Of a stretch of DNA of 64,000 nucleotides, positions 1 to 31,590 are shown in pieces. Position 1 is the stretch's first letter; each line of letters begins with the position of its first letter. This DNA is from Pisolithus tinctorius (Eukaryota > Basidiomycota > Agaricomycetes > Boletales > Pisolithaceae). The stretch is from the NCBI GenBank assembly GCA_024663395.1, contig JANFAH010000014.1:186001-250000 (forward strand), given 5' to 3'. Below the pieces are notes generated by a model. The model was not told the DNA's origin and made no database searches. It saw nothing but the letters and a program-made list of their open reading frames with translations. Made by a program: the position numbers and the translations under genes.

Positions 1-159
1 TGTCAACTCTTGTATCTAGTCCGCTGGGCTGGTTACGAGAACACCGACGAAGAAACCTCTTGGGTGCTTGCAACCGAGCTGGATCACGCTTCTGACATAG
101 TGTCCGCTTTCCATGAACGCTATCCACACAAACCTGGCCCGTATCAACCTCCGCCATAA
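1..159 (+). CDS. gypsy Pol C-terminus, chromodomain (partial)
   Basis: Frame 1 is open from the first base to TAA at 157-159. It encodes 52 residues with the chromodomain-like pattern LYLVRWAGYENTDEETSWV followed by a short helix and the tail KPGPYQPPP. Chromodomains at the end of integrase direct chromoviral elements to methylated histone tails, a known family property. Element 2 ends with the same layout at about 6840-6989, which confirms the assignment. The upstream part of Pol is outside the window. Confidence 0.85.
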   Translation, partial: CQLLYLVRWAGYENTDEETSWVLATELDHASDIVSAFHERYPHKPGPYQPPP

Positions 160-362: not shown

Positions 363-1540
363 TTACTCTTCCATCGCTTGTTCTCCGCCACCCTCCTGTT
401 CTTCACCGCCTTCCTGCTCTCCTTCGACTTCTTCCTCATTATCCCCCTCCGCACCTTCGTCCGCTTCCTCTCGCTGTTCCTCCGCCGCCTCTGACTGAGG
501 CCTTTTCCAACCTCCTCCCGCACGCTCGAGTTCAGCCAGTCTGGCTTCGCGCGCGTCTTCCCTTCTCCTCATCTCCGCCCACTCCGCCCATGCGCGGTAC
601 ATCCCCCACTCGTCGGCAGTCCGCTCCGCTGCCTCCGCCATCCGCTCCGCTGCCTCTGCCATCCTCTCGAAGGCTGTCACGGCCTTTTCATGCGCCGCCG
701 CATACCTCTCTGCAGCCTGCAGCTGCCGCTCCCGCTCCCACTCCGTCCACCAGGAGGAGACCCCCGAGGGTCCCTCGAGCGGCGTCTCTGGCTCCTCCTC
801 GTCCTCTCCACCTGCCTCCCGCTCGTCGTCCGCTTCCTCCGTCTCCGTCGCTCTCTCCTTTCCCTTCCCTCGCGTCCTCTTCTTCTTCTCTCCTCGGGAA
901 CTCCCCGTCCCTGCTCTCTTTCGCGGGGGCCCCGCCGCCGCCTCTTCCTGCGTCCAGCTGCGCGTCTTCTTTTTGTTATGGCAGGGCGCACAGGCCCTGG
1001 TTTTGCCTTGTCCTGGCTCGCACTGGCCCGCCATCAGACTCGCTGCGCAGCGGGTGCAGGGGGGCCGCCTGGTCGCGGTGGCCACCACAGAAGCCCCGGG
1101 CACCTTCTGGGCGGTGTTGACGTCGTACACCGCGCCGGTCAACCTGGAATAGAGTAAGGTCAAAAAATAATAAAAATAGCTCTCTGCCTCTGCCTCTCCG
1201 CCTCTTCCTCTGCCGCCCTCTTCTGTCGAGCCTCCTCTTCCTCTGCCGCCCTTCTCCTCTGGGCCTCCTCTTCCGCTCTCTTCTTCCGCTCCGCCTCCAA
1301 CCGCTCCTCCTCCGCCTTCCGCCTCTTGGCCTCCTCGCGCTTGGCCTTGCGCTCTGCCTCGCGCTCTCTCTCTCTCCGCTCGGCCTCCTCTCGTCGGCGC
1401 GCCTTCTCCGCGGACTTCTCTCGCTCGGTGTCGGTGGAGTCGTCGGTGAGGACGACCAGCTCTTCATCCGCGACTTGGGAGTAGTCGCGAACGTGGCCGG
1501 GGGTTGGCTGGGGGGTGTTGCTCTGGCGCTGGGAAGGCAT
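363..1540 (-). CDS. antisense accessory gene of gypsy element 1 (copy 1)
   Basis: The product is unrecognised. It lies between pol and the 3' LTR, on the opposite strand to the retroelement genes. The first exon starts at ATG 1540 (MPSQRQ) and encodes about 120 residues dominated by E/R/K/A-rich coiled coil. The second exon (about 1150 down to 363) opens with GAVYDVNTAQ and carries a CTRC...C...CAPC cysteine cluster, followed by basic RKR/GEKKKR stretches, a Trp-containing helix and an acidic E/G-rich tail. An acceptor (ttccag) precedes exon 2. I see no GT donor, so a GC donor or a damaged site is possible. Copies at 7172-9032 and about 29998-31590 share the layout and intron position. A nucleic-acid-binding or protein-interaction role is inference only. 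Confidence 0.6.
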
Positions 1541-1720
1541 GGTGATGGGGGAAAAAAGGACGAAGGTTCGATACCCTAACACGTGTTTTTAAGCGGTACT
1601 TCGAACTCCGACGGAGCTCCGCCGCGGCTAAAGCCATCATCCTCGAGGCATCAAAATAATTTCAAATGATCAACTCGTGTTGATCTCGTCCCGTACATGT
1701 GGCCTTCAGGGGTTCAGGCC

Positions 1721-1735
1721 CTAAGGGGGGGGCAC
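1721..1735 (+). other. polypurine tract of element 1
   Basis: A purine run with eight consecutive G residues sits directly before the TGTCATAA start of the 3' LTR. This is the expected position and composition of the plus-strand primer of an LTR retrotransposon. Confidence 0.7.
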
Positions 1736-2450
1736 TGTCATAACCGTGCGTTCGTCATAAGTCTTTGCTCACTCCGCATCCCTTTCCGCCGGTCATCCGC
1801 TCACTCCGCACCAACTCCGCCCAACTTCTGTTGGTTGCGAACCATCTCCGCTCCGACTGCTGTCGGACTTGTGTTGCCCTCCTACCGGACCGAGCGGTCC
1901 GTTCTCTGAGGGGTCATGTGACTACCTTCGCAGTCAGGTACTCCGCGGCGCGCTCACCGCGTGGTCCAGCGCCTGGACTGTTTCCTTTTCTGTATGTTCT
2001 GTGTTACCCGTTTGTATGTCCTCCGTCTACCCTTCATTCGTCGTCCAGGAAATTTTACTTGAAAACTTACGAGTCTCCGTATGTCAGTTCCGATTCCGAT
2101 TACTGTACCTCCGTAGTAGTATAAAAACATGTACTGTACTCCGCTGTTCTTCAGTACGAATATCAACTTAGTTCCTACTCCCTCTGATTCCGTCTTCTGT
2201 CTGTCGGAGTTATCTCCGAACTCTCCGTCTGTACTCTCCCTCTGAAATACGAGGGCTGAGATCGTGCAAGGGGGTAGCGCACGAGCTAAACCCGACGCCC
2301 TCACTCCGCTCCGCCTTTGTCTCGGCGGTCTTCGTTCCTGCCGACACTCCGCTAGTCGGAGTTCTGTCTCTGTGCGTCGGACTTGCTTCCGAACCCCTCT
2401 CTAGACCTTATATACCGTCGGAGTTGGTCGGAGTAGGCCCGGACTTGACA
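1736..2450 (+). repeat. LTR-A, 3' LTR of element 1
   Basis: The LTR runs from TGTCATAACC to GGACTTGACA (TG...CA), 715 bases. Its ends were fixed by alignment with the solo copy at 19274-20008, which has a perfect TSD. It is CpG-rich, with repeated ACTCCGC motifs. A short ACCTTATATA stretch near 2405 may belong to its core promoter. Decayed fragments occur at about 23695-23818 (-) and 29134-29208 (-). Confidence 0.85.
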
Positions 2451-2845
2451 AAGGGCAAGTAAGCACCAAGGCTCATCCAACTCCAGCAATAATAAGTCTG
2501 GAGGTTCTGGCAACAACAGTCAGGCCAAGACCAGTCAGGAGAAAGCCAAGACTGGCAACAATAACAACTCCGCACCTTCCCCCAAGCCAGCTTCATCGAA
2601 GCTGGGTAATAACAATAACAGCAACTCATCTAAGCACAAGCCTAGCAAACTCGGCAAAGATGGAAAGCTCACCCCAAGGAATGCAAGCATCGCATAGACG
2701 GAAACCTCTGCATGTTCTGTGGAGGGTCTGTCACTTTGCTGACAAATGCCCCAAGAAAGCCAGAAAGGCCAAGGCTCGTGCTGCAGCCACCACTGAGGCT
2801 GCACTGGCCTTGGGCTCAGGTTCTACCCCCAAGACAAAAAAATAG
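2451..2845 (+). pseudogene. gag 3' part of element 2 (frameshifted zinc knuckle)
   Basis: A Gly/Asn/Ser/Lys-rich linker (2455-2690) leads to a CCHC zinc knuckle read as CMFCGG in one frame and GHFADKC in another. A one-base indel therefore lies within the knuckle near 2725. A Lys/Ala-rich tail ends at TAG 2843-2845. The knuckle would bind RNA during particle assembly. The upstream capsid part is absent. Confidence 0.7.
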
Positions 2846-2889
2846 GTAGCAGCTCCTGGGACTCTGCACAATCTGGGAGCTGCGTTGAC

Positions 2890-5800
2890 TCCAGTTGTGC
2901 AAACTTGGAGGCTCATCTCAATGTGTCTGCTCTTTCCAGTCCGAACTCTTTAACCCCCTATGTCACATTAGAAAACCCAGATTTACCTTGGCTTCGTACT
3001 TTAGTGGACTCTGGTTCCACTCACTGTTTTATAGATAATCATTTTGCTAATCAACATTCCTTTACCCCTTACTCAGTCTCCCCAATCTGACTCCGGCTTT
3101 TTGATGGAACGTTCACCTTTACTATAACCCAAGCAGTAGATGTCAACATCCACTTCGCATCTGGCAATGTCACAGCAGTAACCCTGTTTTTAGCCCCGTT
3201 GGATTCTGAGTGTAGGATAGTTCTCAGACATGACTGGCTCACCTGCTACAATCTGTTGATTGACTGGGTACTGAGCAGTCTAACATTCTGGACTCCTGCA
3301 CAAGGAATGCCAACCCCATCAACACCCCCTGAAAGCCTGGTTTCCACCAGCCTCCCTGACTCTGGCCCTAGTGACCAACCTGGCCTTGCACCATCTGTAC
3401 CGGTTTCCGACTCCCCGGCTCGCACCCCCCTGAAGGCCCCTCTTGTTTCTCTAATCAACACAGCTGCTTTTGTGTGCGCCTGCAAACTAGAAGGATCTGT
3501 CCAATTCCAACTTCAGCTCCACTCCTCGGACTCAGCTCAAGCCTGATTGGCCTCAGCTTCCCCTCCTCCAGCCTTGCCCAATGTACCAGAAGAGTACCAT
3601 GACTTTGCTGATGTATTCAGCAAGGCCAAGGCCTCAGCACTCCCACCTCACCAGGAGTATGACCTGAAGATAGAGCTCAAAGAAGGAACAACCCCGCCCC
3701 TCGGCACCATCTACTTGCTGTCCCTGGTTGAGCTGCAAGCTCTCCGGACTTTCATTGATGAAAACCTCACTACTGGATTCATTCAGCCTACCTCTTCCCC
3801 CTATGCTGCTCCAGTCCTTTTTGTCAAAAAGAAGGATGGCTCCCTCCGGCTTTGTGTAGACTTCTGCAGCCTCAACAAAATCACTAAGAAGGACCACTAC
3901 CCACTCCTGCTCATCTCTGACCTCTTAGATTCACTGAGCCGAGCCAAGATCTATACTAAGATTGATCTTCAGCATGCTTACCATCTCGTCTGGATTGCCC
4001 TGGGCAATGAATGGAAGACCACCTTTTGGACTCGGTATGGATCCTATGAGTGGCTGGTAATGCCCTTCGGCCTCACCAATGCCCCAGCTGCTTTCCAGCA
4101 CTTTGTCAACACTATCTTTGCAGATATGTTGGATGTCTGCGTGGTTGTCTACCTAGATGACATCTTGATCTACTCCAGAGATAAGGAGTCTCACAAGTAG
4201 CATGTCCAAGAGGTCCTCCACCGGCTTCAGCTTCACGGCCTCTATGCAAAGCCGGAGAAGTGTGAGTTCCACTCGGTGTGAAGTACAGGTTTACCCTCGG
4301 GTGACCAGGCTTCAAGACCAGGTGACAGGGGCTAGTCCAGGTGGCCAGAGTCAAGGCCAGAAGACAGGGCTTAAGTCCAAGTGGCCAAAGTCGAGGCCAG
4401 GAGACAGGGGCCAAGTCTGGTTGGACTGGAGTCAAGGCTGGACAAACAAAGGGAAACAGACCAGAGTTATGTCTGGGTGACCCAGACATAGACCTGGGAG
4501 GACTGGGGTGGAGCAGCACAAGGCCAAAGTGGACCGGAGATAGGGGTAAAACAGCGGACATGAGTTATCTGGGCTGGAGTTGGGTTATCCAGGACCAGAG
4601 TTGGGTTTTCTAGGCCGGACTAGGACCAGACTTGACCGGAGATAGGGGCTAGGGGTCTGGACTGGACTGAGTCTGAGTCTGAGAGTCATGGATATGACAC
4701 TCGGACTCGGTCGAATACCTTGGATTCCACCTCTCCCCTGCTGGCCTCACGATGTCGAAGGAAAAAGTCCAGACCATCTGTGATTGGCCTGAGCCTTGCA
4801 AGGTCAAAGACATTCAGTCTTTCCTTGGCTTTGCCAACTTCTACTGCCATTTTATCTTTAACTACTCAGACACCATCATACCACTGACTTGGCTTACCTG
4901 CAAGGGGGCTCCTTGGAACTTCTCTGAGGAATGCCGCTGGTCATTCAATAACCTCAAGGCCACCTTCACCACCACACCGGTCTTAACTCACTTCATCCCT
5001 GGGGTCCCTATCACTGTCAAGACCAATGCATCGGACTATGCCATTGCTGGCATCCTCTCTATCACCTGTGGCGATGGCCAAATACATCTGGTTGCTTTCT
5101 ACTCCCAGACTCTGACAGCCCTGGAATTAAATTATAACACCCATGATAAGGAATTGCTTGCAATTTTTGAAGCATTCCAGACTTGGTGTCACTACCTTGA
5201 GGGCTTGGCCTCACTGGTCAATGTTGTTACCGACCACAAAAATCTTGAGTACTTCTCTACCTCTAAAGTACTCACCCGCCACCAAGCTCACTGGTTGGAA
5301 TTCCTGTCTCAGTTCAACATGATCATCAGATTCAGGCCCGGTAAGCTCGGGTCTAAGCCCAATGCCCTAACTAGATGATGGGACATCTACCCCAAAGAGG
5401 GGGATAGTGGCTATGCCCGAGTGAACCTGCAAAACCTGAGACTGGTCTTCACCCAGGAGCAACTAGCGGTCTCCCTCCATGCCACTTACCTTGAGTACCT
5501 GGTCTTATGGGTGGTTGTGCTAATGGATATAGAAAAGCTCCATAATGATATCCTGACCGCACTACCAGACAACCCGGTCTCACAAATCCATCTGTCTGAC
5601 ATGTCTGATCCCCGGTGGTCAGTAGATGACACCAGCTTCCTGTGGCTTGATGGAAGAATCTATGTGCTGGACTCAAATGACCTTCGCCTTAGGGTCTTGC
5701 ACCTCAAGCATGACCACCCTCTGTCTAGCCACTTCGGCCAAAACCGCATACTAGAGCTCATACGGCGTGAATATACCTGGCCTGGCCTCAGGACCTTCGT

Positions 5801-6989
5801 CAAGGACTATGTCCAGTCTTGCATGGCCTGTGCTCAGGCTAAGGTTCCCTGCCACTGGCCTTACAGCCTTCTCAAACAACTTCTGGTGCTGGAGAAGCCA
5901 TGGAATTCTATCTCTATGGATTTCATCGAGCAACTTCTGGCCTCAACTGGCTTCACAGCCATCCTCGTTGTAGTTGACTGGCTTTCCAAGCAGGCCATAT
6001 TCATCCCCACCCATGACACCATAACAGCCCCAGAACTTGCCAAACTATTCCTACTCCATGTCTTTTCAAAGCACGGAGTACTGGCCCATGTAACCTCAGA
6101 CTGAGGCTCGGAGTTTGTATCTCATTTCTTCTGGTCACTCAGTAAGGCCTTAGACATGTGCTTACACTTCACCTCAGGCTACCACCCTGAGGGTGATGGT
6201 CAGACCGAGAGGACCAACCAAACCCTTGAGCAATACCTCCGAGTGTACTGCAACTACCAGCAGGACAACTGGGCTGACCTACTACCTCTGGCTGAGTTTG
6301 CTTACAACAATGCCCCTAGCACTACTACTGGTGTTTCACCTTTCTCCACTAATAAGGGCTATCATCCCAACATCTCAGTATACCCAGAGCGCAATCTCAC
6401 CTCCACTCAGGCTCATGACTATGCAGTCAACTTAGACTCACTGCATCAATACCTATGGGAAGAAATGACCTTAGCACAGCAGCGCTATCAAGGACTGGCC
6501 AATGCTAAATGCATGCCAGCTCCGGACTTCAAGGTCAGTGACCAGGTGTATGTCAAAGCTAAATACTTCCGGTCAACCTGGCCTTCCAAGAAACTCTCAG
6601 AGAAGAACCTTGGACTGTACCTGGTCATAGCTCAGGCCAGTACCCACTCTTTCACACTGCACCTGCTGAACTCAATGTGCACAGTACATCTGGTCTTCCA
6701 TGTTTCCCAACTTGAGCCAGCCATCCCAAATACCATCCCGAACTGGACTCAACCACCACCCCCACCAGTCAAGGTTGACGGTGAACTGGAGTTTGAGGTA
6801 GCAGAAATCCTCAACTCCAAGGTTGACTGGTGTCGCCAGTGTTGGTTACAGTATCTAGTCTGGTGGACCAGCTACAAAGGGACAGATGAAGAAACCACTT
6901 GGGTACTTGCTACCGAACTGGACAATGCCTCTGAACTCGTACAAGAGTTCCATTCTCACTACCCTGGTAAACCTGGCCCATATCAATGA
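2890..6989 (+). pseudogene. gypsy pol of element 2 (PR-RT-RH-IN-chromodomain)
   Basis: One frame continues from about 2890 to TGA 6987-6989 once the LTR-B insert (423 bases plus 5-base TSD) is removed. Visible are protease LVDSGSTHCFID (about 3000), the protease end DWLTCYNLLIDW, RT with YLDDILIYS (about 4150), the RT thumb and RNase H (FYSQTLT, ELLAIFEAF, VVTDHKNLE), the integrase core (MDFIEQL, VVVDWLSKQA, YHPEGDGQTER) and a C-terminal chromodomain (about 6845-6989). In-frame stops lie at 3088-3090, 3544-3546, 4198-4200, 5376-5378 and 6102-6104. Each fits a C-to-T change (CGA to TGA, or CAG to TAG). No frameshift is needed over 4 kb, so decay was by point transitions. Confidence 0.9.
4277..4699 (+). 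repeat. solo LTR-B (internally deleted) inside pol
   Basis: The sequence runs from TGTGAAGTAC to GGATATGACA and is flanked by the direct repeat CTCGG (4272-4276 and 4700-4704). Removing it with one TSD joins CEFHS to VEYLGFH, as gypsy RT requires. Full copies are 901-903 bases, so this one lacks about 480 internal bases. Confidence 0.92.
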
Positions 6990-7171
6990 GGACCAGTCTC
7001 AACTGGCCTCAGTTTCAGTTTCAGTTTTCTATTGGTATCTAGTGTTCCTTTGATCTCTTACTTACTTTGCTTTCTCTTTCTTGTTTTCTCTTACTGTACT
7101 ATAGAAGACTGAGACCGGACACTGCCCATGACATTTGCAGAGAAGGAACTACAAGACTGTACGCTACAAAA
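6990..7171 (+). other. spacer between pol and antisense gene of element 2
   Basis: An AT- and pyrimidine-rich spacer separates the pol stop from the antisense stop codon at 7172-7174. No gene is seen. It corresponds in position to the A28-containing spacer of element 1. Confidence 0.5.
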
Positions 7172-9032
7172 CTACTTGGCCTTGGCCATAGTTTCATCCT
7201 CCCTGCTGGACTCCTCCTCCTTGTCCTCGCCATGGGCCTTCAGCCAGTCGGCCTCCTCACACAGCTCATCGGAATCAAGCTCAGATGAGCCCAAATCCGA
7301 GGGGAACATGGCCATCCCAAAGCTGTAGGACTCATCGAGCATAGCCTCAAGTGCATCAGTGATGTGGGAGGCAGGAATCTGCTACCTAGTATGGGGTGTG
7401 GGCTCCAGCCTAGGGATAGGCAATCTGAAGGGGTGAGTTTGACCCAAGAGGAGTCGCCCTAGCAGTAGGAGGGTGATAGGAATGAATGTGACTGAGTCGC
7501 ACGAGTCGCTTGACTTGTAAACGAAAAGCGCGATGGATTAGGGAGTGTGCAGGCCTTGAGTCTGCCTAGAAGTCTGTCAGAATTATGCCTGCGACTCAGT
7601 GCTAGGCAGGGGAAACAGTATGGGTTGTGTCGACGTCATTACTCTGCTTGCTCTCTCTATCTCTAACTTGGGGGCTTCAAAGTTTCTATTTTTCTGTCAA
7701 CAAAGACAGGTATATGTGTAGCTACATGCCAAGTATGTAACTATGAAGTAAGCGATGTCAAAGGTGAAAAGATTGTCAGGAAATGATGGGAATTAGGTGA
7801 GATCGACATAATGATGGCCCTGAGGCCAGAATAGTGCCAGTAATCAAAAGAGAGACTAAATGTAAATGAAGCGAAAGTGATCCGAATAGAAGCGAACAAG
7901 AAGAGAATGAGAGCGACAGCAAAGCACTTACACAACCCATAGTGCGGACCCGAAGAGTGCCAGTGAGTGAGTACAGGCAACTGTGCACCCGTCACAAGTG
8001 TTGGACTTCGTCGCAATGACTAGGGAGAGTGTTGGATGGTGATGTGACCATGGGGGAAGTGAGTCGACAGAGGGGGATGTAGCACTGGGTGACCTAGAGT
8101 GCAGAGGGTGTCAAAGTCACTCGAGAGGGGTCGCATTTGTGTCGCATTTTCCAGAAACCCTATAGCCACTTAGTAGACCTCCTATTGACACTATACATAC
8201 ACTCTTAGTGTAGGGAGATCCCTCTCCCCACAGCGATCCTACCAGAGTTCTCAGCCACGGTCTCATGGGCCTCGAAGAGGCCCACCAGGTTGTTCGTGAT
8301 CAGCCCCGTGATGTTAATCAAGCACTTGAGCTTGTCTTCCAAGCCTGAGAACACTGTCGCACTGGGCCCCCTTGGCCTGCTCCTACCAGCCTCATCTTCA
8401 TCGATGTCCAGCACCTCCAGTGGCTTGTCAACGGCCTTCAACTTCTTCTTACTAGGCCCAGGCTCAGGCATCTCCTCATCAGCCTTCCACTTCTTCCCCT
8501 TATCAACTCTCCCGGCCTTGGGACCAGCCTCGGCATCCTTTCTATCTCTGGGCCACCAGCATTTACCTTTTGAGAGGTTGCAGCGCATGCAAGCCACCCT
8601 CTTCTTGTTGCTGTCCGGGCGCAATGAGTACAACTAAAAAGGAGGTTAGAAGAAAGAATGTGCACAAGGTTAAGAGGTCACTCACCCAGGGTCCATAACC
8701 ACCTTCTTCACCTCCCCCCCGGCCTCATCACCATCATCAGCCTTGGCCTTGTGTCTTTGCTCAGCCTCCCTTTTCTCCTTGGCCTCCCATTCTGCCCTCT
8801 CAGCTTCGGCCTTCTCCCTCGCCGCCCTCTCGCCCTCAAGCCACACCTGCTCTTTGCACCAGGCCTGTTCAGCCACCTTTCGTCTCTTTCTCTCCTTGGC
8901 CTTCACCCTCATCATCTCCTCCTTGTCATCAGTGTTGTATCGGATGGCATTGTCTGATACCTGGGTCCAGTCAACGATGACCCAGCCTTCATCGTTTTTG
9001 CCAGTCGTGCTGATCAGCCTTGATTCAGACAT
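7172..9032 (-). pseudogene. antisense accessory gene of gypsy element 2 (copy 2), split by LTR-C
   Basis: Exon 1 (9032-8686) starts MSESRLIST and encodes a charged coiled coil (KAKERKRRK, AEAERAEWEAKEKREAEQR). A 52-base GTGAGT...TTTTAG intron (8685-8634) follows. Exon 2 (8633-8233) contains RVACMRCNLSKGKCWWP, basic segments (KKKLKAVDK) and a helical NLVGLFEAHETVAENSGRIA. LTR-C plus its TSD then interrupts. Removing them joins GRIA to DALEAMLDESYSFG and an acidic tail ending EDETMAKAK at TAG 7172-7174. The phase across the intron favours CTHC in one frame but CMRC in another, so a one-base indel probably exists. Function unknown; it resembles copy 1 in plan. Confidence 0.65.
7365..8232 (-). 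repeat. LTR-C inserted in antisense gene
   Basis: Read on the minus strand it begins TGTGGGGAGAGGG and ends GCCTCCCAC, about 868 bases, with no ORF. It is flanked by ATCGC (8237-8233) and ATCAC (7364-7360), a 5-base TSD differing by one CpG-to-CpA change. The ends are near inverted repeats (TGTGGGGAG/CTCCCCACA in the copy at 30317-31455). A solo LTR is the simplest reading. A non-autonomous terminal-repeat element is possible. Confidence 0.8.
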
Positions 9033-9169: not shown

Positions 9170-9696
9170 TGTCATAGTCGTGTCTCAACCCCAGCTGGAC
9201 TCAGCCTCACACTCATCCAGTCTGGACTCGGCCTTGCCTGTCCTCTATCCCCAGATGTCCTAGTGCAGTAGACACTGCTTTGCAGTGTCTGTCACTCCAG
9301 TTAAGTCCTGCCCGGTCCTGTCCCCGGTCCACTCTGTCCTGGTCTCCATCACCTTAGTCATACATTACTAATACTTGCCTTACCAATCACCTTAGCAATC
9401 CTAGCGAGACTGGCATTACCAGTCTCTGTACTATAGTTGTTTCTGGTATATAAACTCGTAGATACTTGGCCTGTACCCCTCAGTCTGAAATCAACTAAGT
9501 TAACTCTGATAACCCCACTTCGGCCTCAGACTCGGACTGAGATCCATGCAAGGGAATAGCGCTGTATCTCCAGTCACTAAGTCCAATCAGTCCAACCATC
9601 TGTGTCTTCGACTCCCCTCCTGATCCTGACCCCTCAGACTCGTACCCGCTTCAGTCTCCAGTCCAGTCTCAACCCAGACAATCTGTGAACTTGACA
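9170..9696 (+). repeat. 3' LTR of element 2
   Basis: The LTR runs from TGTCATAGTC to GTGAACTTGACA, 527 bases, TG...CA. It shares end motifs and layout with LTR-D at 32258-32842, including CATGCAAGGGAATAGC. The base following it resumes LTR-B sequence (CTTTGG). Confidence 0.8.
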
Positions 9697-13843: not shown

Positions 13844-15420
13844 TACAGTGAGGGACAAAAGTGTTGCAATGTTTGTGAGGTGTGACTTGTTGCTGATGTA
13901 GCTTGGGCTATTCTTCACAGATAACCATGATACCTATACCACTAGAACAGGGTGACTCTAAGCTTTCCAGAGAACTAAGGTTCAGTCCAAACAAAGCAAT
14001 ACATGCTGAGATACACCCTATTCTTTCCAAAAAGTGCATTGCAATGCTTTTGTCCCTGACTGGTGAAATTGTGAAATGTGACCTTTTGATGGGATTGAGG
14101 GCATGGAGGATGGGGAAAAAAGATTACATAATAAACCACATGATCATCCAGATGATTTGTCAGCATGCAAACAATGACAAACATTGGACTTGTACCATTA
14201 ATCCTCCCTCTTTTACCATCACTCATGAAATCATCTCTCTAGCACACATGGTCATTTTCTCAAGGAATTCTTATCAAATACTGGTGGCCACCACAGTTCC
14301 ATTAGTATAACATGCTCTTAGAACCATCAGTCCCTTAAAAAACCTGCTGTCAGTCATTTCCTGGACTGTTTCCCCCCCCATGCCTGATGTGTTCTGGGAC
14401 TAATCAGTACTTGGAAGGCTGAAAATGTTATGGAGGTCAATCTGGCACTTCAGAACATGATGTACAAACCAGTCCCCTCTCAACCAATGCATTTTTGGCA
14501 CAGGGACAGTGGTATGGAAGTTAGGGAAAGACAAAATCCTCTTTACCCTTGGGTGTCATCAGAAGGATATGCTACTGAACTGCCATGGAGCAGAATCCTG
14601 TGCTTCCATCTGGCCCTGAATATTGCCTTTGGTCACATATGACCAAATAATCCTTCCCCAGTCATCTACAGTTCAGATCAGAGCAAGATCTAGTGAACCC
14701 TCTTATGGTGCTCAGAGCACAAGGAGGTTTTGTCTCACCCCAACTTCCATATCAGTGTTCCTGTGCCAGAAATGCATTGGTTGAGAGGGGACTGGTTTGT
14801 TCATCATGTTCTGAAGTGCCAGATTGACCTCCATAACATTTTCAGCCTTCCAAGTACTGATTAGTCCCAGAACACATCAGGCATGGGGGGGGAAACAGTC
14901 CAGGAAATGACTGACAGCAGGTTTTTTAAGGGACTGATGGTTCTAAGAGCATGTTATACTGATGGAACTGTGGTGGCCACCAGTATTTGATAAGAATTCC
15001 TTGAGAAAATGACCATGTGTGCTAGAGAGATGATTTCATGAGTGATGGTAAAAGAGGGAGGATTAATGGTACAAGTCCAATGTTTGTCATTGTTTGCATG
15101 CTGACAAATCATCTGGATGATCATGTGGTTTATTATGTAATCTTTTTTCCCCATCCTCCATGCCCTCAATCCCATCAAAAGGTCACATTTCACAATTTCA
15201 CCAGTCAGGGACAAAAGCATTGCAATGCACTTTTTGGAAAGAATAGGGTGTATCTCAGCATGTATTGCTTTGTTTGGACTGAACCTTAGTTCTCTGGAAA
15301 GCTTAGAGTCACCCTGTTCTAGTGGTATAGGTATCATGGTTATCTGTGAAGAATAGCCCAAGCTACATCAGCAACAAGTCACACTTCACAAACATTGCAA
15401 CACTTTTGTCCCTCACTGTA
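13844..15420. mobile_element. 1.58-kb near-perfect palindrome with Tc1-like ends
   Basis: Both ends read TACAGTGAGGGACAAAAG inward, the CAGT...ACTG form with TA of Tc1/mariner elements. The left arm (13844 to about 14523) is repeated inverted in the right arm (about 14741-15420). A 408-base block inside the arms differs at essentially one codon, and divergence grows towards the roughly 217-base loop. The outer 217 bases of each arm form a MITE of their own (inner end CATTGCAATGCTTTTG..., near 14062). A third copy of this MITE lies at 28601-28814. No CpG is present. A transcript would fold into a very long hairpin. Confidence 0.85.
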
Positions 15421-18543: not shown

Positions 18544-19273
18544 ATACTCAGTAAAAATATTAATAATATATTGCTGATTGTTGACAGAAAAGATTTTCCA
18601 TGCACAATTTGAACACCAATCATATGGTTCCAAAAAAAACATAGATTATATGATTTTGGCAAGCAGACATGTACCCAACCAAACATTGGCACAAGCTGAA
18701 TAGCTTCAGGATTGATTTTGTGGTCACATGACCCCTGTCACACTGTCAGCCACCCTCACTTAGATAATTGGTATGACCCTTTGCCTCTTCTGTTACTGCA
18801 GAGATGCTGTGAGGTTGGGTTGTCATCCCATAGTTTCCCCTTGATGACTCTGAGGACTCTCAACTTGCCTTTCACTTCCCCCTTGATTCCAAAGAACTCA
18901 CAGCAGTCACCAAGAATGCCACAGACCATGCAGTAGCAGCTATCAACTCCTGTTACTCCCCTGAAGTTGCATGGATGTGAGATATGATGTCAACCAATGT
19001 GTTCTTTGGTGGGTTTTGTCAATGCAAATCATGGGTGAGGGTTGGCTGACTGCAGCCCAGGCAAGGGGAAATCAACCCTTTGTGTAGTGGTGGAGCCCTG
19101 AACAGAAGGCCTGAAGAGAAAATTGGAAGTCAATGCAGAGAAACATTACACTGCTTGTGAGTCATCACATTGTCCTTACCTGGGTTGAACTGATGGGGTC
19201 ATGCTATGCCCAGCCCTGCTAGAAGCACTGCCTTCAGTGCAGAAAGAGCTTGCTAAACTGAAAGTGCAGTCAG
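18544..19273. other. repeat-derived DNA without gene
   Basis: CpG-free and without a recognised domain. The end at 19200-19273 joins in frame-like fashion to 20009 onwards across the solo LTR-A, so it belongs to an older coding relic. Confidence 0.4.
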
Positions 19274-20008
19274 TGTCATAACTGTGTGTTCATTCTAGGT
19301 CCCTACTCACTCCGCACCATCTTCCACCAGTCGTTCACTCACTCTGCACCAACTCTGCCCAACTTCTGTTGGTTATGAGCCATCTCTGCTCTGACTGCCA
19401 TCAGACTTGTGTTGCTCTCCTACTGGACCGAGCAGACCATTCTCTGAGGGGTCATGTGACTACCTTCAGACTTTTCCCTGACAGCGTGCAGTCAGGTACT
19501 CTGCAGCATGTGCACCACATGGTCCAGCACCTGGACTGTTTCTTTTTCTGGATGTTCTATGTTACCCATTCATATGTCCTTCATCTACCCTTCATTTGTC
19601 ATCTAGGAAGTTTTTACTTGAAATTTTCTGGGTCTCCATATGTCAGTTCTGATTCCAGTTACTGTACCTCCATAGTGGTATAAAAGCATGTATCATACTC
19701 TGCCATTCCTCAGTATGAATATCAACTTAGTTTCTACTCCCTCTTACTCTGTCTTCTGCCTGTCGGAGTTATCTCCAACTCTCTGTCTGTACTCTCCCTC
19801 TGAAATACAAGGGCTGAGATCATGCAAGGGGGTAGCACACGAGCTAAACCTGATGCCCTCACTCTGCTCCACCTTTGTCTTGGCAGACTTCATTCCTGCC
19901 ACCACTCTGCCAGTCAGAGTTCTGTTCCTTTGTCTCGGACTTGCTTCTGAACCACTCTCTAGACCTTATATAGCATCAGAGTTGGTCGGAGTAGGCCCAG
20001 ACTTGACA
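19274..20008 (+). repeat. solo LTR-A
   Basis: 735 bases from TGTCATAACT to CAGACTTGACA, with a perfect TSD GTCAG (19269-19273 and 20009-20013). It aligns along its length with the 3' LTR of element 1 (1736-2450). Many ACTCCGC-type sites there are ACTCTGC here, so CpG-to-TpG/CpA change accounts for much of the difference. Confidence 0.92.
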
Positions 20009-21266: not shown

Positions 21267-22969
21267 TTAATACTTTGTATGACCTCCCTTGGCTTTTATC
21301 ACTGCTTGGACCTTTCTAGGCATACTTTCAATTAAATTCTGATACACCCCTGGGACTATAATATTCCACACCACTGCCACTCTCTCCCAAACCTCCCAAA
21401 CTCCCTTTGGCTGTGTTGAATACTTGTTGAGCTCCTGTTTGATGTGATTCCAGAGGTATTCAGTGGGGTTCATATCTGGAGACTGTGGAGGCAAGTCCAG
21501 AGCATTGATATTGTTGTCCTTCAACCACTTCTTTGTCATATCCATGACTCTCGGACTCGGACTCAGTCCAGTCCGGACCCCTAGCCCCTATCTCCAGTCA
21601 GGTCCAGTCCTAGTCCAGCCTAGAAAACCCAATCCTGGCCCTAGATAACTCAACTCTGGCCTGCATAACCCAAGTCCGGTGTTTTACCCCTATCTCCGGT
21701 CCACTTCAGCCTCCCGGCCTTGCGCTGCCCCACCCTGGTCCTCCCAGGTCTATGTCCGGGTGACCCAGACATAACTCTGGTCTGTTTCCCTTTGTTTGTA
21801 CTATATTTAGTCTAGCCCATTCATCTGACTTTGCTTACTGTACAATCCTGTGTCCGACCCCGGTTATGCCAGTCACCTGGACTTTACCTATTAGCCTCGG
21901 CACAGCCACTATGGCTGTCCTCCTCTTGCTAATCATCTTTCTAATAGCTTATTCACAAGTCCAGCTTCATGTTCTTTACTCCGGACCAGCCTCATGTATT
22001 TAACCCCTGTACATACTTCGTAGCACCCTCAGTCAGAATATCAATTAAGTATTACCCTCAACTCCTGTACTACACCCTGAGACTACTCTATAGCTAAGGC
22101 CAAGCCTTAAGCTATCCCTGGCCCCTGTCCCAGACCTCTCCCCAGCTTGCATAAGGGTACAGCACATAAGCTGAGACCAAGGGAGGTAGATCCAACCCTG
22201 GACCAGCTTCCCCCCTGTGTGCACCCCAAGACCGGTCGGTTTCCCACACTACCAGTCTTGTTCCCATGCTCCTGGCCTTAAGTCCGGTCCTCCGGACTTA
22301 GCCCCTGACCCCCGGCCTTACTCTGGTCCCACCAGACTTGGCCCCTGTCTCCTGGCCTTGACTTTGGCCACTCGGACTTAGCCCCTGTCACCCAGTCTTG
22401 AAGCCTGGTCACCCGAGGGTGAACCCATACTTCACATTCTTGGCCTTTTTGGAGGTATGTTTTGGGTCATTGTCCTGTTGAAAGATAACATCCTTCACAG
22501 GAATTCCAGAATCTCCCAAGCTAGGAAGCAACACAGTCCATTCTTTGTATTTCAGAGCAAAGGCTAAATGCTTCTTCCTGTGAATTATAGAAAGAAGTGG
22601 TCTTTTCTTCTTTGTTACAGCCTTGAATGAATGTTTTCTGAGGACCCTTCTGACTGTTCGTGAGGAGACTGGATTGGAGATTATGGAATTGATGTTCTTT
22701 GTAACCTCAACAGCATTGGTGGCCTTGCCTGTGGTGATTTGTGTAATAATAGCATGCTGAGAGGTGGATGAAAGCTTAGCAGGATGTCCAGAAGAAGGTG
22801 CTTGTGGATCAGGAAGAAGGTTCTTGAGCACCCTGGAGACTGTAGGCTGGCTGATACCCAGCCTGGAGGCAATAGTGTGGGTAGAATGACTATTACAGGC
22901 CAGAGAAATGATGTTTTCCTTCTGAGCAGAGGAGATGGGGTGCATAGGATAGTTAGGAAGCATTGACAA
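21267..22969 (-). pseudogene. Tc1-like transposase, internally deleted and split by LTR-B
   Basis: The frame starts MSMLPNYPMH (22969). HTH segments (TIASRLGISQPTVSRVLK) align with the intact copy at 17530. After KYKEWTV it jumps in frame to LLPSLGDSGIP, so about 85 residues containing the first catalytic Asp (SDE) are missing. The second Asp (FQQDNDPKHTS) and the Glu (NPTEYLWNH) remain, on opposite sides of LTR-B. Removing LTR-B and one AAGAA restores SKKAKKWLKDNN. It ends KGGHTKY at 21267. Confidence 0.88.
21534..22436 (-). repeat. solo LTR-B, full length
   Basis: On the minus strand the LTR runs from TGTGAAGTATGG to GGATATGACA, 903 bases. The TSD is AAGAA (22441-22437 and 21533-21529 read on the minus strand). 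It contains many CpGs in an otherwise CpG-free surrounding, so it inserted late. Confidence 0.93.
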
Positions 22970-25560: not shown

Positions 25561-26755
25561 TGTCATATCCATGCCAGTCCTAGTCCGGCCTAGAAAACCC
25601 AATCCTGGCCCTAGATAACTCAACTCCGGCCTGCATAACCCAAGTCTGCTGTTTTACCCCTATCTCCGGTCCACTTTGGCCTCCCAGCCTTGTGCTGCCC
25701 CACCCCGGTCCTCCCAGGTCTATGTCCAGGTCACCCGGACATAACTCCAGTCTGTTTCCCTTTGTTTGTACTATAATTAGTCTAGCCCATTCATCTGACT
25801 TTGCTTACTGTACAAATCCTGTGTCTGACCCCGGTATGCCGGTCACCCGGACTTTAGCTATTAGTCTCTGCACAGCCTCTGTGGCTATCCTCACTCTTGC
25901 TAATCATCTTGCTAATAGCTTATTCACAAGTCCAGCTTCATGTTTGTTACTCCAGACTGGCCTCATGTATTTAACCCCTGTACATACTTCGTAGCACCCT
26001 CAGTCAGAATATCAATTAAGTATTACCCTCAACTCTGTACTACCCCTCGAGTCTACTCTATAGCTAAGGCCGAGCCTTAAGCTATTCCCGGCCCCTGTCC
26101 CAGACCTCTCCCCAGCTTGCATAAGGGTACAGCACATAAGCTGAGACCAAGGGAGGTAGATCCAACCCCGGACTGGCTTCCCCCTTGTGCGCACCCCAAG
26201 GCCGGTCGGTTTCCCATGCTACCGGTCTTGTTCCCGCACTCCTGGCCTTAAGTCCAGTCCTCCAGACTTAGCCCCTGACCTCCAGCCTTAACTCCAGTCC
26301 AACTGGACTTGGCCCCTGTCTCCTGGCCTTGATTCTGGCCACTCGGACTTAGCCCCTGTCACCCAGTCTTGAAGCCTGGTCACCTGAGGGTAAACCCATT
26401 GTAAGGAGAGAGATCTCCTTACTATGGGATTGGGTATTAATTTCTATTTTATTTGTTTTATGGTTTCTTTACTTACTGTTGTGGGTACTATACTTGAGTA
26501 GTATAGTTCGCTTTTTGTGTGCTTAGTCAGCACTTACTTACAGTTTCTTTGTACTGTAAGTTTTTACCAATAGACAAGTTACCCCCAAAGATGAGAATCA
26601 GCTTAAGACTGCCCCAGACTGCCCTAGACAGTTCCCTATCCCCTCCTTCTCTTGCCCAGGCTATAGGAGCCCCTTTGGTCTTACTCTCTCCCTCTCAGAT
26701 TCCTCTACCCCAGCCTCAATCCACACTATTATATTTCCTCACACCGTACTTCACA
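25561..26755 (-). repeat. LTR-B, reverse, carrying a smaller insertion
   Basis: TGTCATATCCATG at 25561 to ...ACTTCACA at 26755, flanked by ACTGG (25556-25560 and 26756-26760). The LTR body is cut at 26400 (ACCCAT) and its last bases ACTTCACA resume at 26748, after a roughly 345-base insert. A short deletion lies near its left end. Its intermediate CpG content suggests an older copy than 26899-27799. Confidence 0.88.
26401..26743. repeat. small TG...CA insert nested in LTR-B
   Basis: The insert begins TGTAAGGAGAGAGATCTCCT and ends TTTCCTCACA. It is flanked by CCAT (left) and CCGT (right), consistent with a 4- or 5-base TSD after one CpG-to-CpA change. The first 25 bases resemble the start of LTR-C (TGTGGGGAGAGGGATCTCCC), so a related LTR family is likely. 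No ORF is supported. Confidence 0.65.
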
Positions 26756-26898: not shown

Positions 26899-27799
26899 TG
26901 TGAAGTACGGGTTTACCCTTGGGTGACCAGGCTTCAAGACCAGGTGACAGGGGTTAAGTCCGAGTGGCCAAAGTCAAGGCCGAGAGACAGGGGCCAAGTC
27001 CGGTTGGACCGGAGTTGAGGCCGGAGGTTAGGGGCTAAGTCTGGAGGACCGGACTTAAGGCCGGGAGCGTGGGAACAAGGCCGGTAGCGTGGGAAACCGA
27101 CCGGTCTTGGAGTGCGCACAGGGGGAAGCCGGTCCAGGGTTGGATCTACCTCCCTTGGTCTCAGCTTATGTGCTGTACCCTTATGCAAGCCGGGGAGAGG
27201 TCCGGGACAGGGGCCGGGGATAGCTTAAGGCTCGGCCTTAGCTATAGAGTAGTCTCGAGGGGTAATACGGAGTTGAGGGTAATACTAAGTTGATATTCTG
27301 ACTGGGGTGCTACAAAGTATGTACAGGGGTTAAATACATGAGGCCGGTCCGGGATAATGAACATAGAGCCGGACTTGTGAATAAGCTATTAGTGAGATGA
27401 TTAGCAAGACAAGGATAGCCACAGTGGCTATGCAGAGGCTAATAGCCAAAGTCCGGGTGACCGGCATAACCGGGGTCGGACACAGGATTGTACAGTAAGC
27501 AAAGTTAGACAAAAGGACGAGACTAAACATAGCACAAACAAATGAAAACAGACCGGAGTTATGTCCGGGTGACCCAGACATAGACCTAGGAGGACCGGGG
27601 TGGAGCAGCGCAAGGCCGGGAGGCCGAAACGGACCGGAGATAGGGGTAAAACACCGGACATGAGTTATGCAGGCCGGAGTTGAGTTATCTAGGGCCGGGA
27701 CTGGGTTTTCTAGGCTGGACTAGGACCGGACTTAACCGGAGATAGGGGCTAGGGGTCCGGACTGGACTGGGAACGAGTCCGAGAGTCATGGATATGACA
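26899..27799 (+). repeat. solo LTR-B, full length, CpG-rich
   Basis: 901 bases from TGTGAAGTACGG to GGATATGACA, with TSD AATGG (26894-26898 and 27800-27804). It has by far the most CpG of all copies (CCGG is frequent), while the flanking ORF has almost none. It is therefore the most recent LTR-B insertion in the window. Confidence 0.94.
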
Positions 27800-28191
27800 A
27801 ATGGGCTCAACAAGTGGGTCAAGAATATGTCAACAGCATCATTGTGAATGGAGGGGAGAATAACCCTCAGGTCATGGCAAAAATCAAGCCCCTGAGGAAG
27901 GCTCTCACTGAACCCTGCCCCCCAAGCAATGTCAGATCGAGGGAGTGGTACAAGCATCAGGCTCAAGTCATTGGTTGCACCATCAACCAGGTCCCTCTGG
28001 GTCACACACCCTTATGGGCTGACAATCAGCAGATCATCTCTGCATTCACCTCTGTGGCATTTATTTATGACCTTCCCCACTGTCCTTGTGGGGGAGCATC
28101 CACTGTCAGGGGAAATCCCTCTGCTAAAGACTCTGAGCCTGAGGAGGGTGAAATGACTGACAACCTGTTTGAGGGTGAGGATAGGTCATGA

Positions 28192-29460: not shown

Positions 29461-29992
29461 TTGAGGCTTTGATGCCCTCCATGCTCTAGGTCACCCAATA
29501 GTCCATCCTTTGTTGTCAACTCATTTCCCCTGTTGCTGCATCACCTCTTGAAACTCCCCCTAGCCATTGCAATGAAGGACTGACACTTGTGGCAGGTCCC
29601 TGGTCATCCTGTACTTGCTCACTTGTGTTCTTCAGGTCCACTCTACCAGTTATGTAAGCACTTTTCTGTTGATCTTCATCTCTACTTGTTCACTTCCCTT
29701 CAGATGACTTCTGCTCCCTTTACATTAGTCTTTCCTTTGATTGCTGACACTACACTGGCCTCATGGCTATCATTATGTTGATCTCAATTAATTCCCTTCA
29801 TTTCTTGTCACTCTTTTGACATTTGATGTTGCTTACTTCATAGTTACATACTTCACATGTAGCTACTCATACACCTGTCATCATCAACAGGAAAAATAAC
29901 AATTTTGAAGCCCCCAAGTCAGAGAATGAGAAAGAGAGAGAAAGTAATGACATTGACACAACTCCATCCTTATCCCTTGCCTAGCACTGAGT
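29461..29992 (+). repeat. partial LTR-C
   Basis: GATGCCCTCCATGCTCTAGG to TGCCTAGCACTGAGT matches the interior of LTR-C at about 30445-30948, and the complement of about 7590-8110. Both ends are missing. It abuts the truncated second exon of antisense gene copy 3. Confidence 0.75.
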
Positions 29993-30316
29993 AGCCACCC
30001 TCTCCTTCCCTTTCCCTCATGGCTGTTTCTTCTTCTCCCCTTGGGAGCTCCCTATACCCACCCTCTTCCACAAGGGCCCTGCCACTGACTGCTCCTGCAC
30101 CCAACTACACACCTTCTTTTTGTATTGGCAGGGCACACACACCCTTGCCTTACCCAACCCAGCCTCACACTGGCCATGCACCACTTGCATGGTGCTCTCC
30201 TGGTCATGGTCACCACCATAAAGGTTCCATGGACTGGGTGGTTGAAATGTCATACACTGCACTGCACACCCTGTAAATAATAAAGCCAAGGGTCAGCTCC
30301 ACTTGGCTTGTAGTAC

Positions 30317-31455
30317 TGTGCTGTGGGGAGAGCAATCTCCCTACACTAGGAATATGGGTATAGTTGCACTGGTGAAAGCCTACTAAGCATCTATAGGCAT
30401 TGCAACAAAGTTGACACAAATGTGATCCCTCTAGAGCAACTTTGATGCCCTCTATGCTCTAGGTCACCCAATAGTTCATCCATTTCTGTTGACTAACTTC
30501 CTCTATCATTGCATCACCTCTCAATGCTCCCCTTAGTAATTGCAACAAAGGTCCAACTCTTGTGACAGGTCCCTGGTCACCTGTACTCACTCCCTTGCAC
30601 TCTTTGGGTCTGCTCTACCAGTTATGTAAGCACCTTTCTGTCAATCTTATTCTCTACTTGTTTGCTTCCCTTTGGATCGCTTTTGCTCCCTTTACATCAG
30701 TCTTTCCTTTGATTGCTGATGCTAGACTGGCCTCATGGTCATCATTACATTGATCTCAACTAATTCCCATTATTTCTTGTCACTCCTTTAAGTTTTGATG
30801 TCACTTACTTCATAGTTACATACTCTGCATGTAGCTACTCATATACCTGTCATCATCAACAGGAAAAATAATGATTTTAAAAGAGAAAGAGAGTGGAAAT
30901 AACAACATTGACATGACCCCTTCCCTATCCCCTGCCTGGCACTGAGTAGCAGGCATAATTGTGCCAATTTCTAGGCCAGCCTGACACTCCTCTACTCATC
31001 AAACTGTCACTCTTTTCATTTAAAAGTCAATCAACTTGCTCAACCTCAACTTGGTCAAGTCCACTCCCTACCACTCTCCTGCAGCTAGATCAACTCCCCT
31101 TGGGTCAAACTCACTGTCAAGAAGTGACAAGGTTACATTAGTGACTGGCAGATGAACAGCAGATGAACCACAGATGAACCTTAGATGAACTAGCCCTTTT
31201 TCCCACACTTCTGTTTTGACAGGTTATGTATCACTGCTAGTATCTTTTCTTACCCCTTGTCCCTTATTCTTACAAGCTTGTTTTTGCATATATATACTTC
31301 ACCTCTCTTACTTACAAAACCTCAGTTGTCTTGCCCATACTCAGGCCATGGCTGAGTTACTTCCTGCTTAGTTTTTGTCACTCACCCCCTCAGATTGCCT
31401 ACCCCTAGGCTGGAGCCCACACCCTCATACTAGGTAGCAGATACCTGCTCCCCAC
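30317..31455 (+). repeat. LTR-C, longest copy, in intron of antisense gene
   Basis: Starts TGTGCTGTGGGGAG and ends ACCTGCTCCCCAC, about 1,139 bases, with TSD AGTAC (30312-30316 and 31456-31460). Removing insert plus TSD leaves a normal-size intron. No ORF. Confidence 0.8.
31146..31190 (+). repeat. short degenerate tandem repeat
   Basis: AGATGAAC recurs four times at 11-12-base spacing within LTR-C. This looks like local slippage. Confidence 0.6.
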
Positions 31456-31590
31456 AGTACTACATACCTTTGGGTGGCTTCTCTCTGCCTGGCCTGAGCC
31501 CTCTCCTCCTCCACCCTTCTCTGCTGTCTCTCAGCCTCCTCCTCCACAGCCTTCTTCCACCAAGCCTCTTCCTCCTCCCTCTACACATCA

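Follow-up and report, generated by a model that had tools for sequence, protein, structure and literature searches.

A spliced antisense gene for a Zn2Cys6-like protein in one clade of gypsy retrotransposons of Pisolithus tinctorius, and arrays of CGG-containing words in the same elements

Antisense accessory genes of long terminal repeat (LTR) retrotransposons are known from plants and from at least two fungi, and the passages on them in PMC7264820 and PMC11963269 describe their function as undetermined. Boty-like retrotransposons of Botrytis cinerea carry the antisense gene brtn (Zhao et al. 2011, as cited in PMC8365987 and PMC7264820), and the plant examples comprise the antisense additional open reading frames (ORFs) of maize Grande (gene23), rice RIRE2 and Retand (TRP28). 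The Grande product is described as nuclear and TRP28 as a suspected DNA binder (PMC7264820, PMC11963269). Here we describe an antisense gene of gypsy retrotransposons in the basidiomycete Pisolithus tinctorius, found in a window of 64,000 nt (contig JANFAH010000014.1, positions 186,001 to 250,000) of a 92.5-Mb genome, which the genome-wide searches reported below cover. The gene is real and is carried by at least three related gypsy lineages, between pol and the 3′ LTR. We put at roughly 0.45 the probability that it is an accessory gene of one gypsy clade whose Zn2Cys6-like protein binds arrays of CGG-containing words in its own element and exerts control over it. Boty, Grande and Retand are precedents for antisense accessory genes in general; what is new here is the enrichment of CGG-containing words in the LTRs.

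The likeness to brtn is one of position, an antisense gene lying between pol and the 3′ LTR of a fungal LTR element (PMC7264820). Boty differs in having an ascomycete host, and the parts of PMC8365987 and PMC7264820 devoted to it do not mention word arrays. The account of Grande, RIRE2 and Retand in PMC11963269 mentions neither an intron nor zinc. A conserved intron, a cysteine cluster and word arrays likewise go without mention for known antisense-gene elements in the relevant sections of PMC7264820 and PMC11963269. Among the papers listed in searches of open-licence literature, none is shown as reporting a retrotransposon with an antisense gene of Zn2Cys6 type. In human T-lymphotropic virus 1 (HTLV-1), the antisense gene HBZ lies on the 3′ LTR side and encodes a nuclear regulator that has a spliced form and a leucine zipper. 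HBZ is noted as a case of an antisense gene in the part of PMC11963269 on this subject. It is a basic leucine zipper protein of an animal retrovirus, whereas the product described here has a cysteine cluster, and the likeness is drawn without any claim of homology.

The two gypsy elements at the left end of the window, elements 1 and 2, represent two families of the antisense gene. Searching the genome with the exon-2 protein of element 1 (family 1) gave 534 candidate places and with that of element 2 (family 2) 437; the best 150 were scored in each case, all with E < 1e-39, far beyond what chance would give. A third family gave 386 candidate places, 150 of them scored, the lower-ranking ones including family-2 places. 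From these we excised 72 loci (30 of family 1, 30 of family 2 and 12 of family 3), three pairs of which are identical loci from two contigs and are counted twice (L035/L036, L039/L040 and L067/L068). Integrase lies on the opposite strand, 3′ of the antisense gene, in 66 of the 72 loci (25/30, 29/30 and 12/12, respectively). The remaining six (L013, L014, L016, L028, L031 and L060) have no integrase match in the excised stretch, and the family-1 loci L063, L067 and L068 have an additional match on the same strand. The gene has the antisense position between pol and the 3′ LTR, the many copies and the selection (see below) expected of an antisense additional gene (aORF-3R); a promoter of its own or in the LTR, a further trait of this class, is putative here. 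Profiles of the three families align with each other (families 1 and 2, E 5.5e-12; 1 and 3, E 1.3e-10; 2 and 3, E 2.1e-29), the coiled coil contributing to these scores. The best public protein matches are P. tinctorius entries, 97% and 98% identical, and nearly all names among the listed matches are 'hypothetical' or 'uncharacterized', some UniRef names reading Zn(2)-C6 fungal-type. A comparison of Pisolithus genomes places genes with zinc-finger domains among the commonest near repeats, according to the portion of PMC10066745 that treats them, and some of these may be copies of the antisense gene.

Our results show that the gene is under purifying selection. The ratio of nonsynonymous to synonymous substitution rates (dN/dS, NG86) is 0.14 in family 1 (14/30 loci, 88 pairs) and 0.18 in family 2 (12/30 loci, 62 pairs), calculated on stop-free models of more than 370 and more than 300 amino acids (aa), respectively, L012 and L030 starting at an inner ATG, with pairs of dS ≤ 0.03 excluded. 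With gap-free columns only, the gene frame comes out lowest in each family (0.14 and 0.17), and four of the five other frames give 1.03 to 2.02. The fifth, the mirror frame on the opposite strand, gives 0.23 and 0.27, a low value that is expected because the two frames share third positions. The possibility that low ratios are an artefact of CpG decay was rejected, since such decay makes no transversions and the transversion-only ratio is also low (0.12 in family 1, 0.13 in family 2). These ratios therefore indicate a gene kept by selection, as the original prediction had proposed in calling it a kept accessory gene; the conserved cysteines, the recurrent phase-2 intron in three lineages and the placement antisense to integrase agree with that proposal, and the neutral decay since insertion that was considered as its refutation is not seen, dN/dS being well below 1.

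The same measurements bear on three other explanations. That the antisense ORF is an overprinting artefact, kept open by constraint on the sense strand or by GC-rich low-complexity sequence, is very improbable: the mirror frame is low too and the other strand contains long ORFs, yet it is the gene frame that has the lowest ratio in both families, that contains a consensus-spliced intron and that encodes a cysteine cluster lying among the most conserved parts of the protein. A captured host transcription-factor gene, hitch-hiking without benefit to the element, is improbable. In its favour, Zn2Cys6-like domains are common in fungal hosts; it sits poorly with at least three lineages, hundreds of candidate copies and purifying selection between copies, and no host paralogue is recognisable by name among the listed protein matches, whose names are nearly all uninformative and beyond which no dedicated search was made. 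We also consider it quite improbable that the antisense RNA is the functional product, pairing with the genomic RNA for silencing or copy-number control, with the protein of minor importance. Such functions of antisense LTR-element transcripts are among the topics discussed in PMC7264820, and the gene does adjoin the 3′ LTR; selection on the protein at dN/dS of 0.12 to 0.18, conserved cysteines and a recurrent intron would be unexpected for a non-coding function.

A GT..AG intron in phase 2 recurs across the three families, the exception among the modelled copies being L049, in which the acceptor is altered. The GTGAGT donor is present in 28/30 family-1 loci (introns of 54–82 nt), the splice-site pattern fits 26/30 family-2 loci (25 modelled, introns of 47–58 nt), and every one of the 12 family-3 loci can be spliced (49–52 nt). 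In families 2 and 3 the intron directly precedes the first cysteine. Public gene predictions match the splice junction, a junction-like pattern being found in 102 of 120 and 47 of 60 proteins listed, and for P0001 the identity is 97% over all 345 aa, junction included; these are independent predictions rather than RNA evidence. A spliced gene in this orientation had been argued to survive in the sense-strand genomic RNA, and the retention of the intron in every lineage fits that argument. Many family-1 introns (L041–L068) contain a short inverted repeat like GTCAGGCGGAGCTGAC, which includes the enriched word of that family (see below). At two separate loci, L020 and L026, family-1 sequence appears to have entered a family-2 antisense gene, within or next to its intron; a reading of these loci as recombinants between the two families was rejected.

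All three copies in the window are degenerate, and because of this damage the gene model is best judged on the relatives. Element 1, truncated by the left edge of the window, runs from the end of pol (near 159) through the antisense gene (363–1540) to its LTR (1736–2450); element 2 has a broken pol (3547–6989), the antisense gene between 9032 and 7172, and an LTR that starts at 9170. The features are as follows.

1–159, plus strand: C-terminal end of element 1 pol, chromodomain region (tblastn of integrase/chromodomain, direct reading).
363–1143, minus strand: copy 1 exon 2, with the cysteine region (last Cys replaced by Arg), basic patches, second helix and acidic tail (ORF, family comparison).
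1144–1190, minus strand: copy 1 intron remnant, acceptor kept and GTGAGT donor gone; one border approximate (family-1 comparison).
1191–1540, minus strand: copy 1 exon 1, encoding the conserved N-terminus and the coiled coil, with an approximate 3′ border (ORF, homologues).
1541–1735, no strand: gap between the copy 1 start codon and the 3′ LTR of element 1; the antisense promoter would be expected here or in the LTR.
1736–2450, plus strand: 3′ LTR of element 1, with about 19 CTCCG/CGGAG (self-alignment with 19271–20008; words counted over 1735–2460).
3547–6989, plus strand: element 2 pol with reverse transcriptase (RT), RNase H, integrase and SH3_Tf2-1, in several ORFs, a repeat being inserted at about 4275–4700 (Pfam, self-alignment).
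7172–7362, minus strand: remnant of the copy 2 acidic C-terminal tail (direct reading; resembles the tails of relatives).
7363–8234, no strand: repeat inserted into copy 2 exon 2 (self-alignment with 29467–31456).
8235–8633, minus strand: copy 2 exon 2 as far as the insertion, with a frameshift within the cysteine cluster (ORF, relatives).
8634–8685, minus strand: copy 2 intron, 52 nt, GTGAGT..TTTTTAG (direct reading, relatives).
8686–9032, minus strand: copy 2 exon 1, N-terminal motif and coiled coil (ORF, relatives).
9170–9696, plus strand: 3′ LTR of element 2, decayed, family-2 type; right border approximate (TGTCATA start, length as in less decayed relatives).
19271–20008, plus strand: second, decayed LTR of the element-1 family, with 14 CAGAG and 3 CGGAG/CTCCG (self-alignment, word count).
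29998–30270, minus strand: copy 3 exon 2 fragment (30000–30175 is 71.6% identical to 853–1028).
30271–31467, minus strand: copy 3 intron with an inserted repeat (reading, self-alignment).
31468–31590, minus strand: copy 3 exon 1 fragment (coiled coil), ending at a GTATGT donor (direct reading).

The minus-strand genes announced between pol/chromodomain and the 3′ LTR of elements 1 and 2 are present (ORFs, Pfam, tblastn), and self-alignment relates the third fragment, at 29998–31590, to the other copies. The description of the two elements as different gypsy families stands insofar as they are two lineages; these are related and belong to one clade, the integrase of family-1 loci being mostly 74–80% identical to that of family 2, in agreement with the trees. 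The two-exon structure is found in copy 2, while among the 30 family-1 loci the GTGAGT donor is missing from two, copy 1 and its duplicate. Of the intron sizes of 52–53 nt claimed for copies 2 and 3, the first is correct; the copy 3 intron carries a repeat of about 1.2 kb and measures about 53 nt only once this is subtracted. Homologues sought in other gypsy elements exist in at least three lineages, and the protein matches listed are all from P. tinctorius. The Arg of copy 1 occupies the position of the sixth Cys of most relatives, and in copy 2 the inserted repeat separates exon 2 from the acidic tail. In a Pfam scan of the window's own exons the pol domains were found and the antisense gene gave nothing above cut-off. 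Between the start codon and the 3′ LTR there are 195 bases in element 1 and 137 in element 2, so that the antisense promoter is probably in this gap or in the LTR itself.

The window also contains other repeats. One, of about 0.5–1.2 kb, has related copies in three places, in copy 2 exon 2 (7363–8234), in the copy 3 intron (30271–31456) and beside copy 3 (29467–29995). Another is dispersed at 4275–4700 (inside element 2 pol), 21532–22436, 25574–26399 and 26899–27801, the three longer copies being about 90% identical. A large inverted repeat at 13844–15420 spans 1.58 kb and matches its own reverse complement at 93% identity. CpG decay has left its mark in the decaying copies, where TGA far outnumbers the other in-frame stops, and in the old LTR at 19271–20008, which has CAGAG where the element 1 LTR has CGGAG.

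Proteins of intact copies are about 330–400 aa long. A conserved N-terminal motif and a long helix precede the six cysteines; basic patches and a second helix come next, and the tail is acidic. Every protein feature named in the original prediction was recovered, the coiled coil and the cysteine cluster as well as the basic patches and the acidic tail. The cluster had been described as CxxC...CxxC, which is present, and the six cysteines of intact relatives go beyond two CxxC pairs. The long helix has a predicted local distance difference test (pLDDT) score mostly above 90 in predicted models. In families 2 and 3 the cysteines are spaced CxxCx6Cx12CxxCx6C (2-6-12-2-6; 106/120 and 45/60 public proteins listed), in family 1 CxxCx8Cx9CxxCx6C (2-8-9-2-6; 17/39), and the full six-cysteine pattern is found in 106/120, 49/60 and 18/39 listed proteins of families 2, 3 and 1, respectively. 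The Zn2Cys6 (Gal4-type) consensus is C-x2-C-x6-C-x5-12-C-x2-C-x6-8-C. Only families 2 and 3 conform to it and family 1 deviates, and a fuller PROSITE-like pattern fits 78/120 family-2, 0/60 family-3 and 0/39 family-1 proteins. The cysteine regions of families 1 and 2 match each other directly (E 2e-5). PF00172 is the commonest Pfam match (14/51 members at E up to 1, best 0.026); because its score falls under the cut-off, we name the protein Zn2Cys6-like and do not class it as a member. Foldseek gave as best PDB match of models from two families Pho7 (E 5.2) and Put3 (E 3.1), both Zn2Cys6 DNA-binding domains, a twofold outcome that is suggestive and not significant, and a sequence-profile search of PDB yielded no convincing relative (best E 0.56). 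Spacing in two families thus speaks for a Zn2Cys6-like nature, and structure does so weakly. The likeness to Gal4-type proteins lies in how the six cysteines are spaced in families 2 and 3, in the top-ranking Foldseek hit for each of two models and in the CGG of the candidate target words; the antisense product differs in scoring below the Pfam cut-off and in that its coiled coil precedes the cluster, whereas in Gal4 and Put3 the coiled coil follows it.

We then consider the LTRs, of which 20, 22 and 10 distinct ones from the 30, 30 and 12 loci of families 1, 2 and 3 were counted, the rest being duplicates or lacking a recognisable LTR start. Short words are enriched about 7- to 19-fold over dinucleotide shuffles. 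CTCCG/CGGAG has a mean of 14.6 in family-1 LTRs (range 4–19, n=20) against 2.2 in shuffles, CGGNCTC/GAGNCCG a mean of 3.6 in family-2 LTRs (0–11, n=22, decayed LTRs included) against 0.2, with 7–11 in six less decayed LTRs, and CCGGTC/GACCGG a mean of 9.4 in family-3 LTRs (7–11, n=10) against 0.5. Family-1 LTRs are set apart (CGGNCTC 0.0, CCGGTC 0.6). In 44 tiles of 700 bp of host DNA the means are 1.39 for CTCCG, 0.25 for CGGNCTC and 0.30 for CCGGTC. The three words show no enrichment in a gypsy copy of another clade, L082 (8, 2 and 2 in 6151 bp), or in a copia copy, L083 (2, 2 and 0 in 3501 bp), and neither has a matching cysteine cluster in the stretch examined. Dinucleotide shuffling rejects CpG content, and synonymous-codon shuffling codon usage, as the whole explanation of the words. 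A leading enriched word contains a CGG/CCG triplet, the usual Zn2Cys6 target, in all three gene-bearing families. This coincidence perhaps amounts to two independent cases, given how close families 2 and 3 are and that they have words in common.

From that triplet we infer that the protein may read these words. In the mechanism we propose, a transcript would begin in or near the 3′ LTR, run counter to gag-pol and be spliced once. Its product, a coiled-coil-forming and probably nuclear protein with a Zn2Cys6-like, putatively zinc-binding cluster, would bind the CGG-containing words of the element that encodes it, in the LTR as well as in the body, and thereby control that element, most likely by activation or anti-silencing and less likely by damping. 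Activation or anti-silencing is preferred to repression because a kept gene should aid the spread of the element and because VANC, an element-encoded protein of Arabidopsis, acts in this way; this is the least certain step. The suggestion that the gene might regulate the element or its silencing accordingly finds some support in the cysteine cluster taken together with the word arrays.

Several observations weigh against this interpretation. The Pfam Zn_clus (PF00172) cut-off of 21 bits is not reached by the isolated family-2 domain (18.7 bits) or by family 1 (11.8 bits), and the Foldseek matches fall short of significance for a cysteine region modelled at a pLDDT of only about 43–65. Among the matches listed for the three proteins (120 of 181, 60 of 60 and 39 of 39) no homologue outside P. 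tinctorius appears, by a method that needs shared 5-residue words and so leaves absence elsewhere not shown. The element controls are one other gypsy copy and one copia copy only. Families 2 and 3 share words, CGGNCTC averaging 3.2 in family 3 (0.3 in shuffles) and CCGGTC 2.5 in family 2 (0.3 in shuffles); one separate word per family was accordingly rejected, and a better description of the words in these two families is as variations on CCGG/CGG. In pol of two family-1 loci CTCCG occurs 52 and 56 times, against 19.7 and 20.4 in synonymous-codon shuffles, in all three frames. Sense-strand occurrences of the words prevail in families 1 and 2 (58:5, 15:3 and 11:1), which would also suit a role on RNA. 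Finally, a further gypsy lineage, examined in the single copy L081, has a pol ORF of 1258 aa followed directly by an LTR and no antisense gene; this copy has 14 CTCCG/CGGAG in its LTR (2.4 in shuffles) and 54 CTCCG in pol (19.0 in codon shuffles).

Since L081 lacks the gene and has the array, word and gene are not strictly coupled, and strict tracking of the gene by the word was rejected. The LTR of L081 is similar in sequence to that of family 1. An integrase tree without outgroup (two family-2 rows and the outgroup were unreadable, and one row was omitted) joins families 2 and 3, and family 1 and L081, at 100/100; with an outgroup, family 1 and L081 join at 85/87. The RT and RNase H trees do not resolve the placement of L081 and family 1. 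With family 1 as its nearest relative, L081 may have lost the gene and use the family-1 protein in trans, or the word may be unrelated to the gene.

The latter possibility extends to the arrays as a whole: the gene would be kept, with the protein binding something else, and the words would act on the sense RNA, for instance in Gag packaging, or reflect another force. We consider this somewhat unlikely. It would account for the strand bias in families 1 and 2, the presence of words in coding regions, the family-1 word of L081 and the words common to families 2 and 3. It does not account for the strand balance of CCGGTC in family 3 (CCGGTC 4–6 and GACCGG 6–8 per LTR region, five loci), nor for the usual Zn2Cys6 triplet in a leading word of each gene-bearing family. 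One-sided orientation and occurrence outside the cognate family are also compatible with protein binding, since plant VANC motifs are likewise one-oriented and VANC6 motifs also occur in an unrelated element in Arabidopsis, as reported in the section of PMC5735166 on these motifs.

Our preferred reading, binding of the protein to the arrays of its own element, is comparable with this plant system. VANDALs, which encode VANC, are DNA transposons of Arabidopsis, in contrast to the retrotransposons considered here. VANC provides element-encoded anti-silencing, with binding and hypomethylation demonstrated (PMC5735166, in its treatment of VANC); the words described here are candidate targets. The likeness lies in an element-encoded protein and, in part, in a short, dense, family-specific motif in one orientation (PMC5735166); here, the family-1 word is distinct and those of families 2 and 3 overlap, and one-orientation arrays occur in families 1 and 2 and not in family 3. 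The VANDAL motif is described as lying mainly in non-coding parts and tandem repeats (PMC5735166), whereas the words described here are enriched also in pol of family 1 and L081. A fuller self-recognition system, in which the spliced antisense Zn2Cys6-like protein and the CGG-word arrays co-diverged (family-1 words as opposed to those of families 2 and 3), VANC-like and independent in origin, with the gene-less relative of family 1 served in trans, seems to us somewhat unlikely as well.

The antisense protein has a testable biochemical identity and the words are its candidate targets, which opens its function to plain binding assays. If the pairing of protein and words is true, a fungal retrotransposon would have evolved element-encoded, sequence-specific self-recognition of independent origin. 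This could go some way towards explaining how hundreds of copies came to be present in a genome whose repeats show CpG decay.

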